A stretch of DNA of 64,000 nucleotides, taken from assembly GCF_000982955.1 (NCBI RefSeq), contig NZ_KQ058895.1, forward strand, positions 1 to 64,000. The letters run 5' to 3'. Under the pieces are notes generated by a model. The model was not told the DNA's origin, ran no database searches, and worked only from the letters and a program-made list of their open reading frames with translations. This stretch comes from Micromonospora sp. HK10. GTDB lineage: Bacteria > Actinomycetota > Actinomycetes > Mycobacteriales > Micromonosporaceae. Positions 3,735 to 44,195 of this stretch are shown here, piece after piece. The translations under genes were made by a program, and so were the position numbers. Every line of letters begins with the position of its first letter. Position 1 is the stretch's first letter.

Positions 3735-3757
3735 CTGTCGGACCTCCGGCGTACCGT
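3735..3757 (+). promoter_or_regulatory. RecA-NDp (PafBC-type) promoter of uvrB
   Basis: CTGTCG at 3735-3740 is followed by exactly 11 bases and TACCGT at 3752-3757. This fits the RecA-independent damage promoter described in mycobacteria (TTGTCR-N11-TANNNT) apart from the first base. The -10 box ends seven bases before the uvrB ATG, so the mRNA is probably leaderless. The same arrangement is seen upstream of uvrA, uvrC and recQ. Confidence 0.7.
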
Positions 3758-8262: not shown

Positions 8263-8550
8263 CACCGCGACCCGCGATCATCCGCCGACCCGGCAATCGG
8301 CGGCCGGCTCCGCACCGACTGCCGGAGCGCACCTGACTGCCGGAGCGCGGCCATCACCCGCCGCCAGCCGGAACGCGCCTGGCTGCCGGAGCGCAACCAG
8401 CCGCCGGAGCACGGCCATCACCCGCCGCCACCCCCGCGGGCGGCGTCCGGCACGCCGGCTGCGCGCCGCCGCCGGGCCCGGCGGCCCCGATGCCCGTCGG
8501 GGCCGGCGGCTGGCGCGTCGAGAGGCACGTTAGGTCAGCGGTACGACACT
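8263..8550. repeat. Gene-free spacer with imperfect direct repeats
   Basis: This 288-bp spacer between convergent genes holds several copies of CCGGAGCGC and a direct repeat of GGCCATCACCCGCCGCCA about 64 bp apart (near 8349 and 8413). No coding signal, clear terminator or known RNA was recognised. Confidence 0.5.
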
Positions 8551-26552: not shown

Positions 26553-27227
26553 ATGAGCACCCGGACGGCGCTGGCCGACCTGGAACGGGAGATCGCGGGC
26601 GACGGTGGTGGCCTGGACGGTCTCCGGCTCGTCGACACCCCGTTCGTGCCGGAGGTGCGGCTGCACCTGGCCGAGGACGCCATCCTCTGGTGGGCCCGGA
26701 TGGAGGCGGCCGCCGGCCGGTCCCTGCCGCCGCCGTACTGGGCGTCCGTCTGGGCGGGCGGGCAGGCGATCGCCCGGCACCTGCTCGACCACCCCCAGCT
26801 GGTCACCGGGCGGCGGGTGCTCGACCTGGCCGCCGGATCCGGGCTGGTCGCCGTCGCCGCCGCGCTCGCCGGCGCCGAGCTGGTGGTCGCCAACGACGTC
26901 GACCCGTACGCGGTGGCCGCCGTGACCGTCAACGCGCGGGCCAACCGGGTGAGCGTGGTCGCCACCGGCGGCGACCTGCTGGACGGCACCGCCGACGTCG
27001 ACCTCGTGGTCGCCGGTGACGTGTTCTACGACGCGGCGCTGGCCGCCCGGGTGCTGCCGTTCCTGCAGCGGTCCGCCGCGCGCGGCGCGCAGGTGCTGGT
27101 CGGCGATCCGGACCGGGGACACCTGCCGGCGGACGGGCTGGAGGTGGTGGCCAGCTACCGGGTGCCCACCACCGAACCGGCGGTCGACTCCCCGGTCCGC
27201 CGGGTCCAGGTGCTGCGACCGCACTGA
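26553..27227 (+). CDS. Class I SAM-dependent methyltransferase (METTL20/ETFB-lysine-like)
   Basis: This 224-aa protein has the SAM-binding motif [20 protein letters not shown]. Other family features are the upstream [19 protein letters not shown] typical of lysine methyltransferases of the Nnt1/METTL20 type, [11 protein letters not shown] for the acidic ribose contact, and [17 protein letters not shown] as the post-I region. The target may be a protein lysine, but this is inferred from family only. ATG at 26553 is chosen; ATG at 26541 is also in frame. It lies head-to-head with the cold-shock gene. Confidence 0.8.
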
Positions 27228-30766: not shown

Positions 30767-30789
30767 TTGTCATACCTCGGGGCTAGAGT
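30767..30789 (+). promoter_or_regulatory. RecA-NDp (PafBC-type) promoter of uvrA
   Basis: TTGTCA at 30767-30772, 11 bases, then TAGAGT at 30784-30789. This is the best match in the window to the mycobacterial RecA-independent damage promoter, with all bases of TTGTCR present. Transcription would start about 95 bases before the uvrA GTG. Confidence 0.8.
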
Positions 30790-30893: not shown

Positions 30894-33839
<2,946 letters not shown>

Positions 33840-34811: not shown

Positions 34812-34834
34812 CTGTCGGGGGTGCGGACTAGGCT
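34812..34834 (+). promoter_or_regulatory. RecA-NDp (PafBC-type) promoter of uvrC
   Basis: CTGTCG at 34812-34817, 11 bases, then TAGGCT at 34829-34834. The -10 box ends six bases before the uvrC GTG, which indicates a leaderless mRNA, as at uvrB. Confidence 0.7.
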
Positions 34835-34840
34835 TGCGGC

Positions 34841-36781
34841 GTGGCTGACCCCTCGACCTACCGTCCCGCGACCGGCACCATCCCGGAGTCGCCAGGGGTC
34901 TACCGCTTCCGCGACGGCACCGGCCGGGTGATCTACGTGGGCAAGGCGCGCAACCTGCGCAGCCGGCTCAACTCCTACTTCGCCGACCCGGTCAACCTGC
35001 ACCAGCGCACCCGGCAGATGGTCTTCACCGCCGAGTCGGTGGACTGGATCACCGTGGCCACCGAGGTCGAGGCGCTCCAGCAGGAATACACCTGGATCAA
35101 GCAGTACGACCCGCGGTTCAACGTCCGCTACCGCGACGACAAGTCGTACCCCTATCTCGCGGTCACCCTCGACGAGGAATACCCGCGCCTGCAGGTGATG
35201 CGCGGCGCCAAGCGCAAGGGGGTGCGCTACTTCGGGCCGTACTCCCACGCCTGGGCGATCCGCGAGACGCTGGACCTGCTGCTGCGGGTCTTCCCGGCGC
35301 GGACCTGCTCCTCCGGAGTGTTCAAGCGGGCCGGCCAGGTGGGCCGGCCCTGCCTGCTCGGTTACATCGGCAAGTGCTCCGCGCCCTGCGTCGGCAGCGT
35401 CACCGCCGAGCGGCACCGGGAGATCGTCAACGGCTTCTGTGACTTCATGGCCGGCCGCACCGACACCATGGTCCGGCGGCTGGAGAAGGAGATGCTGGAG
35501 GCCAGCGAGCAGCTGGAGTTCGAGCGGGCCGCCCGGCTGCGCGACGACGTGGCCGCGCTGCGGCGCGCCATGGAGAAGCAGACCGTGGTGCTCGGTGACG
35601 GCACCGACGCCGACGTGGTGGCCTTCGCCGACGACCCGCTCGAGGCCGCGGTCCAGGTCTTTCACGTCCGCGACGGTCGGGTCCGCGGCCAGCGCGGCTG
35701 GGTGGTGGAGAAGACCGAGGAGCTGACCACCGGTGACCTGGTGCACCACTTCTGCACCCAGGTCTACGGCGGCGAGCAGGGCGAGGCCGACGTGCCCCGC
35801 GAGCTGCTCGTTCCCGAGCTGCCCGGCGACGCCGAGGCGCTCGCCGACTGGCTCTCCACCCGACGGGGCAGCCGGGTGTCCCTGCGGGTGCCGCAGCGCG
35901 GCGACAAGCGCGCGCTGCTGGAGACCGTCGAGCGCAACGCCAAGGACGCGCTCGCCCGGCACAAGCTCAAGCGGGCGGGCGACCTCACCACCCGCAGCCA
36001 GGCGCTCGACGAGATCGCCGAGGCGCTCGGCATGCGTACCTCGCCGCTGCGGATCGAGTGTTTCGACGTGTCCCAGATCCAGGGCACCGACGTGGTGGCC
36101 AGCATGGTCGTCTTCGAGGACGGGTTGCCCCGCAAGAGCGAGTACCGGCGGTTCATCGTCCGCGGCGCCACCGACGACCTCTCCGCCATGTCCGAGGTGC
36201 TGCGCCGGCGCTTCGCCCGCTACCTCGACGCCCGCGCCGAGACCGGTGAGATCGGCGAGGAGACCGCCGGTGACCCGGACCGGCCCGGCATCGACCCGAC
36301 CACCGGCCGGCCGCGCCGGTTCGCGTACCCGCCGCAGCTGGTCGTGGTCGACGGCGGCGCGCCGCAGGTGGCCGCCGCCGCGCAGGCCCTCGCCGAGCTG
36401 GGCATCGACGACGTGGCGCTCTGCGGCCTGGCCAAGCGGCTGGAGGAGGTCTGGCTGCCCGACGACGAGTTCCCGGTCATCCTGCCGCGCACCTCCGAGG
36501 CGCTCTACCTGCTGCAACGCGTACGCGACGAGGCGCACCGGTTCGCCATCACCTTCCATCGGCAGCGCCGCTCGAAGCGGATGACCGAATCGGCGCTCGA
36601 CAACATCCCCGGCCTCGGCGAGGTACGCCGCAAGGCGCTGCTGCGGCACTTCGGCTCGCTCAAGCGGCTTTCCGCCGCCACCGTCGAGGAGATCACCGAG
36701 GTGCCCGGGGTGGGCCGGCGGACCGCCGAGGCGATCCTCGCCGCCCTCGACGAGTCGGGCTCGGCCAAGACCCACTCCTGA
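34841..36781 (+). CDS. uvrC: Excinuclease ABC subunit C
   Basis: This 646-aa nuclease makes both incisions in nucleotide excision repair. It has an N-terminal GIY-YIG domain ([20 protein letters not shown], residues ~12-95) and a UVR domain ([20 protein letters not shown], ~215). An RNase H-like nuclease domain ([20 protein letters not shown] and [10 protein letters not shown]) and a helix-hairpin-helix pair at the C-terminus ([20 protein letters not shown]) complete it. The GTG at 34841 fits both the family start and the promoter. A ~1.5-kb gene-free repeat region follows. Confidence 0.98.
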
Positions 36782-36908
36782 GGCAGGGCCGGTGGGCTGC
36801 CGGGTAGCGGCCCGGTGGCGGGCGGAGCAGAACTGCCTCGCGTCCCGCTTGCTTGGGTTTTGGCGGCTGTGGGTGTCCGGCGTTCGGCTCACGGCCTGGT
36901 TTCCGCAC

Positions 36909-37279
36909 GCTACCGACTTGATGACGGGAACGACTCACAGGTGGGACGCTACCGACTCAATGACGAAACGACTCAACGCGGGACGGTACCGACTCGCGCC
37001 GGCAAACGACTCAGGCCGGATGCTACTGACTGGCTGGCGCAAACGACTCACGACGTGATGCGCGTGGCGCTGCCGAACTCACTGACGGAAACGACCCACG
37101 GCGGGGTGCTACTGACTTGATGGCGCAAACGACTTACGACGTGATGCGCGTGGCGCTGCCGAACTCACTGACGGAAACGACCCACGGCGGGGTGCTACTG
37201 ACTTGATGGCGGAAACGACTCAGGCGGGGCGGCGTGACCGTGCCGACTCAATAACGGCAACGACTCACGGGGGAGGCAG
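36909..37279. repeat. Tandem array of ~36-46-bp units with an 86-bp higher-order period
   Basis: About nine units share the pattern GCTAC(C/T)GACT...GATGGCG.AAACGACTCA. Within it, an 86-bp composite unit starts at 37022, 37108 and 37194 (two full copies and the start of a third), differing at only a few bases between the full copies. This stretch is clearly lower in G+C than flanking genes. A single inverted copy of the unit lies at 37616-37651, and an inverted pair occurs at 48556-48714. It is not coding and not a CRISPR, since the whole unit is conserved rather than repeat plus unique spacer. Confidence 0.8.
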
Positions 37280-37376
37280 AGGAGGGCGGCTGGGGGTGAG
37301 TGTCGATACCGGCTCGGTTCGGCGGGGCGGGGCGACGAACCGGGACCGGGGGACGGCCGCGACTTTCCGGGGCTGG

Positions 37377-37397
37377 TGATCGACTCGGGATGCGGCA
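37377..37397. repeat. Fragment of the TTGATCGAC palindromic element
   Basis: TGATCGACTCGGGATGCGG, then CA, matches the left arm of the elements at 93-277 with one or two changes. The right arm is not evident, so this looks like a half element. Confidence 0.55.
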
Positions 37398-37615
37398 AGC
37401 AGGCGTATCCCAGGTCAGGGAGGCTACCGATTGACAGCATCCTGAGCGAACCGCGCACCCGGGGCGGTGCTAGAAGCCGGGGATGCCGCGCCTTGAGGGC
37501 TTGCGCAGGCGCTCGGGCGTTCGAATGCCCCGTTTTGTCGGTCCGCGTCGCCGCGCCTGGGCCGTACAGCTGCCGCCACCACAGCCGCTGCCTCCGCCGC
37601 CGCGAGTCCTTCCGC

Positions 37616-37651
37616 CCGTGAGTCGTTTCCGCCATCAAGTCGGTAGCGCCC
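37616..37651. repeat. Inverted copy of the GCTACCGACTTGATG unit
   Basis: Read on the minus strand this is GGCGCTACCGACTTGATGGC, then GGAAACGACTCACGGG. It is the same unit as in the array at 36909-37279 but in opposite orientation, so the two enclose about 0.35 kb. No gene is recognised in 36782-37736. Confidence 0.7.
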
Positions 37652-37736
37652 GGAAACCCCACGCGGCCGGACGAGATTCACCTTCGCGTCGAGGACACTC
37701 CGGCAACGCGGAAGGCCCGGGTGCCCGAGTGCCCGT

Positions 37737-37813
37737 TTTGGGGGCTGGCGTCCCGTGGTCGGGGCCACCCGCAGATTTGGGGGCTGGCGTCCCGTGGTCG
37801 GGGCCACCCGCAG
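37737..37813. repeat. 39-bp tandem duplication
   Basis: Two almost identical copies start TTTGGGGGCTGGCG at 37737 and 37776. Each contains the dyad GTGGTCGGGGCCAC. Upstream and downstream DNA (37652-37895) shows no gene. Confidence 0.75.
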
Positions 37814-37895
37814 GGCGGAATCATGCCGGGGCCGGGGTCGTTGAACATGGCAGACCGCGGAGCAGCCCCACCCCAGGGTGAGCGGCCCCCGGTCG

Positions 37896-38163
37896 GAAAT
37901 GATCGGCCACCGGCCGTCGTTACATCCCCCGCACCGCGCACCACCGGTCCACCCCCGGGTGACGCCGGGGAAGCCAGGGAATGACGTCCCGGCCTCCGTC
38001 GTTACATCCCCCGCCACCACGCACCACCACTCCCGGGTGAGCCAGGGGAATGACGTCCCGGCCCCCGTCGTTACACCCCCCCGGACCGCGCACCACCGGT
38101 CCACCCCCCGGGGGGCATCGGATCCAGGCCGAGGGAATCACTTCCCCGCCACCGATGGTTACA
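37896..38163. repeat. Four spaced hairpin repeats upstream of the C39 peptidase gene
   Basis: A ~30-bp element with consensus GGAATGACGTCCCGGCC and CCGTCGTTACA occurs four times; GTTACA lies at 37919, 38001, 38070 and 38158 (intervals 82, 69 and 88 bp). AATGACG and CGTCGTT within one copy form an inverted repeat, so each unit is a small dyad. Between copies, GCACCACC(GG) and CCGGGTGA segments also recur. The last copy ends ~127 bp before the C39 ATG, which makes a regulatory role possible. Confidence 0.65.
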
Positions 38164-38289
38164 CCCCCCGGACGCCCGAGCAGGTCACCCCCGACCGCCA
38201 GGCACCCAGACTTTCCCCCCTTTTTCGGCGGCGCCTCGCGCACCCCCGCGCCCGCGCGCCGCCAACCCCCGACCAGAGAGGCACTCATC

Positions 38290-38940
38290 ATGCGTACCAC
38301 TCTGCTGCGTAACACCGTCCTGACCGCCGCCGGCTTCGCCGCCACCACCGCCGGAATCGCCGGCCCCGCCATCGCCGCACACGCCGCCCCCGCGCAGAAG
38401 ACCACCCAGGTCAGCACCGACCGCAAGGGCCACGGCGAACGCGAACTCGACGTGCGCTACGAAGCCCAGCCCAACTTCTACTACTGCGGCCCCGCCGCCA
38501 CCCGCAACGCCCTGTCCGTGCTCGGCAAGAACATCGACGTCGACGCCATGGCCAAGGAAATGGGCACCACCGAGAACGGCACCAACAGCATCAACGACAT
38601 CACCCCCGTCCTGAACAAGGAAACCGGCAAGCACTACCGGTCGGTCGAGATCAAGAACAGCAACGCCGACGACAAGCAGACCGACACCCTGCGCACCGAC
38701 ATCGTCCGCACCATCGACGACGGCCGCGCCGTGGTCGCCAACATCGCCGGCACCACCACCGACACCGACGGCAACACCCACTCCTTCGAAGGCGGCCACT
38801 ACATCAGCGTCGTCGGCTACCGCGACAACGGCCACACCGTCACCATCGCTGACAGCGCCAACCCGAACACCGCCTCCTACCACATCAGCATCGACAACCT
38901 CGCCGACTGGATCGCCACCCGCGGCTACAGCGCCTCCTGA
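38290..38940 (+). CDS. Secreted C39-like cysteine peptidase
   Basis: This 216-aa protein has a signal peptide (MRTTLLRNTVLTAAGFAATT followed by a small-residue cleavage region ending AAHAA). The mature part is a papain-like C39 domain: catalytic Cys in YYCGPAATRNAL, catalytic His in GGHYISVVGY and an Asp in IADSANP. It is not fused to an ABC exporter, so it is not a bacteriocin-processing transporter and probably acts outside the cell. Third positions strongly prefer C over G compared with neighbours, a mark of high expression. AGAGAGG precedes the ATG, and a very strong terminator follows. Confidence 0.85.
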   Translation: MRTTLLRNTVLTAAGFAATTAGIAGPAIAAHAAPAQKTTQVSTDRKGHGERELDVRYEAQPNFYYCGPAATRNALSVLGKNIDVDAMAKEMGTTENGTNSINDITPVLNKETGKHYRSVEIKNSNADDKQTDTLRTDIVRTIDDGRAVVANIAGTTTDTDGNTHSFEGGHYISVVGYRDNGHTVTIADSANPNTASYHISIDNLADWIATRGYSAS

Positions 38941-38966
38941 CCGGCCATCCGCTGACAGGAGCGAAC

Positions 38967-39003
38967 ACGAAGGGCCGGCCCTCACAAGGGGTCGGCCCTT
39001 CGT
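38967..39003 (+). terminator. Terminator hairpin after the C39 peptidase gene
   Basis: ACGAAGGGCCGGCCC and GGGTCGGCCCTTCGT form a 15-bp stem with one mismatch and a 7-base loop. It lies 26 bases after the stop codon and just before the convergent recQ gene, which it may also serve. Confidence 0.8.
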
Positions 39004-39026
39004 CGTGTCCGCGGACGGACCTGGTC

Positions 39027-40868
<1,842 letters not shown>

Positions 40869-40874
40869 CCGCGC

Positions 40875-40897
40875 AGTCTACGATCGTCCCCCGACAC
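40875..40897 (-). promoter_or_regulatory. RecA-NDp (PafBC-type) promoter of recQ
   Basis: On the minus strand, GTGTCG (40897-40892) is followed by 11 bases and TAGACT (40880-40875). The recQ ATG begins seven bases further, so the mRNA is probably leaderless. Spacing is identical to the uvr promoters; only the first base of TTGTCR differs. Confidence 0.65.
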
Positions 40898-41190
40898 CAC
40901 CCGGCCGCCGGCGGGCGCGTCGGCACCCGAGCGGGAACCGCCGTCCCGGGCCGACCCAGGGCCGGGGACGGCGCGGAAGCCGGCGGCGTCGCCGGCCCCC
41001 GGAGGTACGGGACGCCGACGTACCGGCGTGTCGGAAGGACGACCCGGGTGGAGGGCCGGATCCGGCAAACCGGACAAGTACCTGTTCCCGTCGTCACCCC
41101 GTGGAATCCCGGGCGGGGTCGGAGCCGTTAGAGTCGCTGACTGACCAGGCGCGGCCGACCGGCCGCGGCGCCACAGCTTGGGGGTAGCGG

Positions 41191-42129
41191 GTGAGCGAGG
41201 CGCGGACGGGAGACCCGGTGTCGACGGCCGGTACGGAGCCGGCCCTCGGCCGGCCGGCGCCGGCCGAGGCGGACACCACGTTGGTCGTGGTCACCGGCCT
41301 CTCCGGCGGTGGCCGCAGCACGGTCGCCCGGGCGTTGGAGAACGTCGGCTTCTACGTGGTCGACAACCTGCCCCAGGCGCTGATGCTCGACATGGCCGAG
41401 CTGGCCTTCAAGGCCGGCGGCGCGGCCCGGCGTACCGCCATGGTGCTGGACGTGCGCTCCCGCGCCTTCTCCACCGACCTGGCCGGAGCGATCCGGGAGC
41501 TGCGCGAGCGCGGCTTCCACCCCCGGGTGGTCTTCGTCGACGCCGACGACGAGGTGCTGATCCGCCGCTTCGAGAGCGTCCGCCGGTCCCACCCGTTGCA
41601 GGGCGAGGGGCGGCTGGCCGACGGGATCGCGGTGGAACGGGCGTTGCTGGAGGAGGCCCGCGACCAGGCCGACGTGATCATCGACACCAGCCACCTGAAC
41701 GTCAACCAGCTGCGCCGCCGGGTCGAGGAGCTCTTCGGCGGCGAGGACGCCCGCCGGCTGCGGATCACCGTGCTCTCCTTCGGCTTCAAGTACGGCCTGC
41801 CCCCGGACGCCGACTTCGTGATGGACGCCCGGTTCCTGCCCAACCCGTACTGGGTGCCGGAGCTGCGCGAGCACACCGGCCGGGAGGAGGCGGTCAGCGC
41901 GTACGTGCTGGGCCAGGAGGGCGCGGAGGGCTTCGTGGCCGGCTACGCCGACCTGGTCAACGCCACCACCGGCGGTTTCGAGCGGGAGGGCAAGCGCTAC
42001 CTGACCGTCGCGGTCGGCTGCACCGGCGGCAAGCACCGCAGCGTCGCCATCGCCGAGGAGCTGGCCGCGCGGCTGCGCCAGTCCGGCATCGCGGCCAACG
42101 CCCAGCACCGGGACCTGGGGCGGGAATGA
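41191..42129 (+). CDS. rapZ: RNase adapter protein RapZ (P-loop family)
   Basis: This 312-aa P-loop protein of the YvcJ/RapZ family binds RNA and, in enterics, tunes GlmS levels through small RNAs; its actinobacterial role is less clear. The P-loop is VTGLSGGGRSTVARALE, with Arg in place of the usual Lys, as in this family. The C-terminal signature is GCTGGKHRSVAIAEELA. It overlaps yvcK by four bases (ATGA) in the conserved rapZ-yvcK-whiA order. A TAGAGT box at 41129-41134 is a candidate promoter. Confidence 0.95.
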   Translation: MSEARTGDPVSTAGTEPALGRPAPAEADTTLVVVTGLSGGGRSTVARALENVGFYVVDNLPQALMLDMAELAFKAGGAARRTAMVLDVRSRAFSTDLAGAIRELRERGFHPRVVFVDADDEVLIRRFESVRRSHPLQGEGRLADGIAVERALLEEARDQADVIIDTSHLNVNQLRRRVEELFGGEDARRLRITVLSFGFKYGLPPDADFVMDARFLPNPYWVPELREHTGREEAVSAYVLGQEGAEGFVAGYADLVNATTGGFEREGKRYLTVAVGCTGGKHRSVAIAEELAARLRQSGIAANAQHRDLGRE

Positions 42130-43160
42130 TCCCGACCAGGGTGGTCGCGTTCGGCGGCGGGCACGGGCTCTCGGCGTCGCTGCGGGCGCTGCGGCACTGC
42201 GTACCCGGGCTGGACCTGGACATCACCGCGGTGGTCACGGTGGGCGACGACGGCGGCTCCAGCGGGCGGCTGCGCGCCGAGCGCGGCGGCCTGCCCCCCG
42301 GTGACCTGCGGCAGGCGCTGGTCGCCCTCGCCGGCGACCACCCGGCCACCCGGCGCAGCGCCGCGCTGTTCCAGCACCGCTTCGCCGCCGCGGCGCGGCA
42401 GGCGGGCGTCACCGTGGGACCGCCGCCCGGCGGCGCCGCGGTGAGCGCCGGGGCCGGCGCGACGGCGGCCGACCCGCTCGCCGGACACGCCGTCGGCAAC
42501 CTGTTGCTGCACGGGCTGATGGAACTCCTCGGTGACCCGGTGGCCGCGCTCGACCACGCCGGGGCGATGCTCGGCGCGGTCGGCCGGGTGCTGCCCATGT
42601 CGTGCCAGCCGGTGGGCATCGAGGCCCGGGTACGCGGCGCCGACCCGGACCACCCCGACGAGGTACGCGTGCTGCGTGGCCAGCACCAGGTGGCGGTCAC
42701 CACGGGGCGGGTGGAGTCGCTGCGGCTCACCCCGGCCGCGCCGGCGGCCTGCGCGGAGGCGGTCGCCGCGGTCCGCGCCGCCGACTGGTTGATCTTCGGG
42801 CCGGGCAGCTGGTACACCAGCGTGCTGCCCCACCTGCTGGTGCCCGGGCTGGCCGACGCGATCGTGTCCAGCCCGGCCCGCCGTCTGGTGACCCTCAACC
42901 TGGTGGCGGAGAAGGAGACCTTGGGGCTCTCCCTGCCCGACCATCTGGACACCCTCGGGCGCTATCTGCCCGAGCTGAAGGTGGACATGGTGCTGGCGGA
43001 CTCCACGGCGGTGGGTGATCCCGAGGCGGTCGAACGTGCGGCAGAATCGCTGGGTGCCCGGCTGGTCCTCGCCCCCGTCGCCGTCACCGACGGCACGCCC
43101 CGTCATGATCCAGCCGCGCTGGGCGCCGCACTGGTGCCGGTCCTGGGCGCCGATCGTTAG
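42126..43160 (+). CDS. yvcK: Gluconeogenesis factor YvcK/CuvA family protein
   Basis: This 344-aa protein is related to the CofD 2-phospho-L-lactate transferase fold. It is required for growth on gluconeogenic carbon and for cell-wall homeostasis in other Gram-positives. Signatures are VVAFGGGHGLSASLRAL at the start, VGDDGGSSGRLR, and FGPGSWYTSVLPHLLVPG in the second half. Residues ~98-118 form a Gly/Ala-rich insertion. It is translationally coupled to rapZ and lies 54 bp before whiA. Confidence 0.93.
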   Translation: MIPTRVVAFGGGHGLSASLRALRHCVPGLDLDITAVVTVGDDGGSSGRLRAERGGLPPGDLRQALVALAGDHPATRRSAALFQHRFAAAARQAGVTVGPPPGGAAVSAGAGATAADPLAGHAVGNLLLHGLMELLGDPVAALDHAGAMLGAVGRVLPMSCQPVGIEARVRGADPDHPDEVRVLRGQHQVAVTTGRVESLRLTPAAPAACAEAVAAVRAADWLIFGPGSWYTSVLPHLLVPGLADAIVSSPARRLVTLNLVAEKETLGLSLPDHLDTLGRYLPELKVDMVLADSTAVGDPEAVERAAESLGARLVLAPVAVTDGTPRHDPAALGAALVPVLGADR

Positions 43161-43214
43161 ACACGTACGTAATCACCGGCGACACGCCGGTACCGGTCCG
43201 TGAGGGGGCGCACT

Positions 43215-44195
43215 ATGGCGATGACGGCCGCGGTCAAGGACGAGCTGAGTCGGGTCGACGTACCCAAGCCGTGCTGCCGGCGCGCGGAGATGGCCGCCCT
43301 GCTGCGCTTCGCGGGTGGCCTGCACATCGTGTCCGGCAGGGTGGTGGTCGAGGCGGAGCTGGACACCGGCGCGGTCGCCCGGCGGCTGCGCCGCGAGATC
43401 GCCGAGGTCTACGGCTACTCGAGCGAGATCCACGTGCTCGCCTCCGGTGGGCTGCGCAAGGGCAGCCACTTCATCGTCCGGGTGGTCAAGGACGGGGAGG
43501 CCCTCGCCCGGCAGACGGGCCTGCTCGACGTCCGGGGCCGTCCGGTGCGCGGGCTGCCGCCGCACGTGGTGGCCGCGAACGTGTGCTGCGCGGTCTCCGC
43601 CTGGCGGGGCGCCTTCATGGCGCACGGCTCGCTCACCGAACCGGGCCGCTCCAGCGCGCTGGAGATCACCTGCCCGGGCCCGGAGTCCGCGCTGGCGCTG
43701 GTCGGCGCGGCCCGCCGGATCGGCATCACCGCGAAGAACCGAGAGGTACGCGGGGTGGACCGGGTCGTGGTCAAGGACGGCGACGCGATCGCCGCCCTGC
43801 TCACCCGCATCGGCGCCCACTCCAGCGTGCTGGCCTGGGAGGAGCGGCGGGTGCGCCGGGAGGTCCGGGCGACCGCCAACCGGCTGGCCAACTTCGACGA
43901 CGCCAACCTGCGCCGCTCGGCCCGCGCCGCGGTGGCCGCCGCCGCCCGGGTCACCCGCGCGCTGGAGATCCTTGCCGACGACGCCCCCAACCACCTCACC
44001 TCGGCCGGCCGGCTGCGGCTTGAGCACCGGCAGGCCTCGCTGGAGGAGCTGGGCGCGCTCGCCGACCCGCCGCTGACCAAGGACGCCATCGCCGGCCGGA
44101 TCCGGCGGCTGCTCGCGCTGGCCGACAAGCGGGCCCGCGACCTGGGCATCCCGGATACCGAAGCGGCCGTCACGCCCGACATGCTCGTGGTCTGA
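43215..44195 (+). CDS. whiA: Sporulation/cell-division regulator WhiA
   Basis: This 326-aa DNA-binding protein acts with WhiB to drive sporulation septation in streptomycetes. The N-terminal half has the LAGLIDADG-like fold ([22 protein letters not shown]; two-fold repeat with [20 protein letters not shown]). The C-terminal helix-turn-helix is in [20 protein letters not shown]. The ATG at 43215 follows GTGAGGGGG; an in-frame start 15 bp upstream is less likely. It is the third gene of the rapZ-yvcK-whiA group. Confidence 0.96.

Follow-up and report, generated by a model that had tools for sequence, protein, structure and literature searches.

In mycobacteria and other actinobacteria, the RecA-NDp/PafBC promoters found at recA and uvr genes consist of a sigma-A -10 element and a box whose centre lies at about -26, and the mycobacterial box is TTGTCR. 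According to a preprint the contact lies at -24 (PMC12340889), and a study on M. smegmatis describes recA and uvrB as dependent on PafBC and lists, in its Table 1, the 'RecQ' protein MSMEG_5935 at -1.9 (1.9-fold lower) in the proteome of a pafBC deletion (PMC5656591). MSMEG_5935 is, like the recQ product considered here, a RecQ-family helicase, and according to these data its level is PafBC-dependent. Unlike recQ here, it is not a classical RecQ but RqlH, described as a helicase of the RecQ-like type that carries a phosphoribosyltransferase domain at its C terminus (PMC4670107); we therefore rejected it as a direct precedent and took it as an indirect precedent only. In the LexA SOS regulon of S. 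venezuelae, as far as the accessible text goes, DNA damage induces recA, dinP, and perhaps uvrA, and the word 'recQ' is absent from the main text of that paper (PMC9380542). Among the matches listed for open-licence PMC papers we found no report of a classical recQ in a PafBC regulon, and the 2018 regulon and 2004 motif papers may list recQ. A search of open-licence PMC papers for leaderless transcripts, DNA damage, and Micromonospora together also returned no paper.

The DNA analyzed here (the window) comprises positions 1 to 64,000 of contig NZ_KQ058895.1 of Micromonospora sp. HK10. The open reading frame at 39027-40868 on the minus strand encodes a classical RecQ helicase of 613 amino acids, with a score of 772.6 bits to the TIGR01389 profile against a curated cut-off of 640.2, and it was the best of three recQ_fam matches above the cut-off in the genome. 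In the stretch 34841-44195, uvrC and rapZ are separated by recQ and a C39 peptidase-like frame, and whiA lies farther on; recQ is encoded on the other strand than uvrC and rapZ and is divergent to rapZ, and uvrC-rapZ-whiA is the usual gene order. Upstream of recQ, the minus strand from 40897 to 40875 reads GTGTCG GGGGACGATCG TAGACT, followed by GCGCGG and the ATG at 40868. This was the motif, GTGTCG-N11-TAGACT ending six bases before the ATG, that had been described in the sequence-only reading, and we confirmed it as stated. From the sequence and the spacing in relatives, GTGTCG (40892-40897, minus strand; TGTCR core) was assigned as the putative -26 box of a PafBC/RecA-NDp-type promoter, and from the sequence and the genus alignment TAGACT (40875-40880, minus strand) as its -10 element. 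The six nucleotides between the -10 element and the ATG suggested that transcription starts at the A of the ATG (40868, minus strand), which would give a leaderless mRNA. When the -10 element was set at -12 to -7, the box occupied -29 to -24, in agreement with the PafBC/RecA-NDp geometry, and the promoter had the features of that class, namely a TGTCR box at -26 separated by N11 from a TANNNT -10 element. A sigma -35 element sits 16-18 bases from the -10 element; we set aside a -35 reading of the recQ box since it lies 11 bases away. The exact string GTGTCG-N11-TAGACT occurred once in the whole genome, at recQ, and in the fetched stretches around the two further RecQ-family loci there was no such site on the strand of the gene.

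The spacing of N11 at recQ is also that of the uvr and recA sites of the genome (the recA site is in L164). In the window, promoters of the same type were found from the sequence on the plus strand at 3735-3757, 7 nt before the uvrB ATG (3765), at 30767-30789 upstream of uvrA, and at 34812-34834, 6 nt before the uvrC GTG (34841), the three genes being assigned by Pfam. The uvrA start, a GTG at 30894, lies 104 nt downstream of its site, and therefore the uvrA mRNA would carry a leader of about 100 nt. The earlier claim that recQ has exactly the spacing of the three uvr genes was thus correct for the distance between the two boxes, N11 in all three, but it does not extend to the start codons, as that of uvrA lies farther away. 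A fifth match, at 8527-8549 on the minus strand, had no coding-like start within 250 nt and adjoins the end of an ABM monooxygenase frame; it is perhaps a chance match. The five matches of NTGTCR-N11-TANNNT in the window compared with a mean of 0.37 and a maximum of 3 in 100 dinucleotide shuffles (Poisson tail, 4e-5), a count that is biased by the uvr genes and recQ having first been chosen for the motif, whereas the counts in the whole genome and in relatives are unbiased.

Genome-wide, NTGTCR-N11-TANNNT matched 63 times and a reversed control pattern 26 times, from which about 40% of the 63 matches may be due to chance; when a G was required after TGTCR, the counts were 38 and 7, respectively. 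Unlike the mycobacterial promoter, the first base of the box was mostly C or G. At 30 of the 63 sites a start codon of a coding-like frame followed 6-7 nt downstream, compared with 302 of 20,000 positions drawn at random and 15 of 180 plain TANNNT elements in the same stretches (Fisher, 1e-10); about half of the sites were thus of the leaderless type, in which respect they differ from the described RecA-NDp/PafBC promoters. A weight matrix built from 28 leaderless sites outside the window, including spacer columns that have few counts, ranked the recQ site only 59th of the 63, and this low rank is counter-evidence to the reading of the site as a PafBC promoter. The recQ spacer is unusual in having TCG before the -10 element, a feature that is itself conserved in the genus.

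For 44 of the 63 sites, the frames that follow (40 plus the 4 window genes) were scanned for families. By our own classification, 16 of the 44 sites precede genes of repair or replication: recA, recN, dinB (DNA polymerase IV), a polA-like gene (DNA polymerase I fragment), ligA (NAD ligase), a DinG/YoaA-like helicase, a DEDD exonuclease with a UvrC-like part, tag (methyladenine glycosylase), an AlkZ-like gene, a UDG-like gene (uracil glycosylase), a gyrB/parE-like gene, a PD-(D/E)XK nuclease, uvrA, uvrB, uvrC, and recQ. Compared with the known RecA-NDp/PafBC regulon, classical recQ is an addition to the list. For the other 28 frames a role in repair was not evident; they include ABC transporters, a GDSL lipase, and a luciferase-like monooxygenase. 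The same promoter type also stands before genes for a sigma-70 family factor (L100:1529-2482), a WYL regulator (L149:549-1238), a pentapeptide-repeat protein (L084:903-1493), and a Schlafen AlbA_2 protein (L156:1-1182); these may belong to the regulon, but none has an obvious function in repair. The PD-(D/E)XK nuclease gene, with its site at C9:26876 (L188), has a Pup-ligase-family gene about 5 kb away (C9:32361). As in the RecA-NDp/PafBC system, both PafB and PafC are encoded in the genome, by adjacent frames near tatC (L189). These frames matched PafBC structures with E values of 9.6e-68 (9fnd_X) and 8.2e-80 (7p5x_AX), and Pfam identified HTH_PafC, WYL, and WCX domains at this locus, with TatC nearby.

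Starting from what was directly observed, that is, the sequence, its geometry, the pattern of conservation, the PafBC genes, and the set of genomic sites, we consider it highly probable that the element upstream of recQ is a PafBC-dependent damage promoter of the RecA-NDp type that yields a leaderless mRNA. RNA polymerase with the housekeeping sigma factor would contact the TAGACT -10 element, while the GTGTCG box near -26 would take the place of the sigma -35 element and be read by PafB of the PafBC heterodimer. PafBC, activated by single-stranded DNA after damage, would adapt sigma to the promoter, as has been shown in mycobacteria. Transcription would then start at or next to the A of the ATG to give the leaderless recQ mRNA, and RecQ, a helicase of recombinational repair, would be co-induced with RecA, RecN, and UvrABC. 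The earlier proposal that recQ belongs to the damage regulon of the uvr genes and is leaderless is supported by the PafBC geometry, the conservation in the genus, and the encoded PafBC.

The sequence-only reading had also proposed to compare relatives and see whether the two boxes are conserved while the flanks drift, and this applied to most of the genus (TGTC in 30 of 44 genomes) but not to one six-species clade, where the box was lost or altered, nor to the family, where it was patchy. Among 37 genus members, all 36 with a recQ match were used, of which 25 have TGTC as the recQ box, 6 have nGTC, and 5 lack the box; another eight genus genomes had TGTC (5) or nGTC (3). Column statistics were calculated from 35 of the 36 aligned rows (G015, with a 7-nt gap, was dropped), which were picked by TANNNT-N6-ATG; this choice fixes the letters T, A, and T of the -10 element and the ATG, and position -9, which was free to vary, was A in 35 of 35. 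The box columns T, G, T, and C had 1.59, 1.03, 1.88, and 0.85 bits, respectively, and the upstream flank had at most 0.42 bits in columns -70 to -36, at most 0.58 bits in columns -35 to -31, and 0.91 bits at -30. At uvrC, a TGTCR box with the right geometry was present in 35 of the 36 genomes, and it was more constant than the recQ box (Fisher, 0.003; Fisher values of this kind compare related genomes, which are hence not independent). The five boxless recQ genomes all fell in one clade of six species (SH-aLRT 100 in a quick tree), the sixth of which has CGTC (G001, G003, G005, G007, G031, and G036, corresponding to L138, L168, L140, L141, L135, and L175). All six members keep TGTCR at uvrC; therefore, the regulon seems to persist in this clade and recQ to have left it. 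The -10 element of recQ in the clade is TAGAAT. We do not claim replacement of a lost box by TAGAAT as a rule, since it was seen in one clade only and boxed promoters of other genera also have TAGAAT.

In 80 genomes from other genera of the family, the recQ promoter had TGTC in 26, nGTC in 17, and no box in 35, with no recognizable promoter in 2; a leaderless-type -10 element was thus present in 78 of the 80, and 10 of 22 genera had at least one genome with TGTC at recQ. The corresponding numbers for 33 other actinobacterial recQ loci were 11, 6, 10, and 6, and the box was found in Streptomyces, Amycolatopsis, Lentzea, and Cellulosimicrobium. The box is not essential, since 5 of the 36 genus genomes and 35 of the 80 other family genomes are without it, while 78 of the 80 retain the -10 element. 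In the family, it would be the leaderless -10 element that stays constant, with the -26 box as an addition that evolution can dispense with, and recQ is a likely but evolutionarily dispensable member of the PafBC regulon, for which induction is predicted. The gene itself is not universal, with a match at E 1e-150 in 96 of 150 family genomes, and Phytohabitans suffuscus is apparently present twice among the relatives (L004 and G128). When the -10 element was chosen blind to the box, TGTC stood at a spacing of 11 in 67 of 149 actinobacterial recQ promoters, whereas the 21 remaining spacings between 2 and 23 together gave 3. The 149 promoters are those of 157 recQ loci minus 8 without a recognizable leaderless-type promoter; the full pattern is nevertheless present at 3 of these 8, all from Streptomyces. 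Within 300 nt upstream of recQ, the full pattern was present at 24 of the 36 loci from the genus, at 12 of the 33 from other actinobacteria, and at none of 52 other recQ loci, and the reversed pattern in none of the three sets; a relaxed GTCR version gave 30, 19, and 0 matches against 0, 0, and 2 for its reverse (L008, titled as an Acidobacteria MAG, was left out of both the actinobacterial and the other set). Outside the genus uvrC itself was less constant, with TGTC-N11-TANNNT upstream in 5 of the 11 order-level genomes that were fetched out of 24.

The retention of the -10 element and the start in boxless relatives would also be expected if recQ were a constitutive leaderless sigma-A gene whose -26 box is a remnant or has only a slight effect. 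TAGAAT, which is nearer to the sigma-70 consensus TATAAT, occurred in 5 of 5 boxless genus members, all of one clade, versus 3 of 30 others, and a conserved T at -15 (32 of 35) may add promoter strength, both of which agree with such a gene. However, neutral decay would not maintain TGTC at one exact spacing while the flanks drift, and the box stands at recQ also in the four genera named above; we consider a constitutive promoter improbable.

The box could instead be read by something other than PafBC, for instance LexA or another activator of the WYL type, and ten WYL-domain matches in the genome would provide candidates. Against this stand the PafBC geometry, the presence of the motif at recA and the uvr genes, and the dependence of recA and uvrB on PafBC in M. 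smegmatis reported in the accessible text of PMC5656591. Unlike the LexA SOS regulon, recQ here has no SOS-like box nearby: CGAAC-N4-GTTCG with up to one mismatch was absent within 13 kb of recQ, the nearest matches were at 27173 and 56493, and the four matches in the window were within chance. We therefore set aside LexA control of recQ and regard a regulator other than PafBC as very unlikely. The low score in the spacer-inclusive matrix would also fit a chance match at recQ, but the 67 of 149 promoters with TGTC at one spacing versus 3 at 21 others, and the 0.37 matches expected per window, make the probability of such a coincidence negligible. The PafBC-dependent leaderless promoter is the reading that we prefer.

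In the accessible text of the S. venezuelae study, an initial search had suggested that the PafBC motif of M. smegmatis is not conserved there (PMC9380542), and RecA-NDp promoters have been described in S. coelicolor, with SCO6735 being UV-induced, according to the accessible text of PMC5087735. In eight Streptomyces genomes (L002, L003, and L009-L014), the relaxed motif occurred 44, 82, 73, 73, 107, 106, 74, and 93 times and the reversed control, in the same order, 5, 3, 12, 6, 13, 10, 14, and 7 times, which puts the ratio of motif to control between 5 and 27 in all eight. The set contained not S. venezuelae itself but its close relative S. narbonensis. The motif also exceeded its control in Lentzea (183 versus 11), Amycolatopsis (158 versus 7), Cellulosimicrobium (19 versus 4), and Nonomuraea (64 versus 14), and the excess in Phytohabitans, of the same family, was only twofold (28 versus 14). 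In Streptomyces the motif preceded uvrC and the main recA in 8 of 8 genomes each, and a second recA in one of them was without it. It lay within 300 nt of recQ in 6 of 8, in 3 of which it was not at an in-frame leaderless start.

A broader reading is that a PafBC-type regulon including classical recQ spans Micromonosporaceae, Streptomyces, and other actinomycetes, and that point changes at -26 have repeatedly switched recQ between a damage-inducible and a stand-alone leaderless gene; we give this even chances. In this reading uvrC would have remained a member within the genus (35 of 36 genomes) while recQ varied, as would both uvrC and recA in Streptomyces (8 of 8 each). If correct, the reading would also revise the impression given in the literature that Streptomyces has not conserved the motif. 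The promoter type is known, and classical recQ would be its new member; a recombination helicase is thereby predicted to share its switch with excision repair and RecA. Genomes in which the recQ box is present or lost, with uvrC as the internal control, offer a natural comparison for the worth of PafBC control of recQ. The excess of the motif in the eight Streptomyces genomes, and its place at uvrC and the main recA in all of them, make testable the question raised in PMC9380542 of a RecA/LexA-independent damage response in Streptomyces.

In two family genera (g38 and g61), 13 recQ matches contained one in-frame TAG. Because the start was seen 24 nt further in for 3 of the 13, this TAG is probably the TAG of the -10 element, read within an N-terminal extension.
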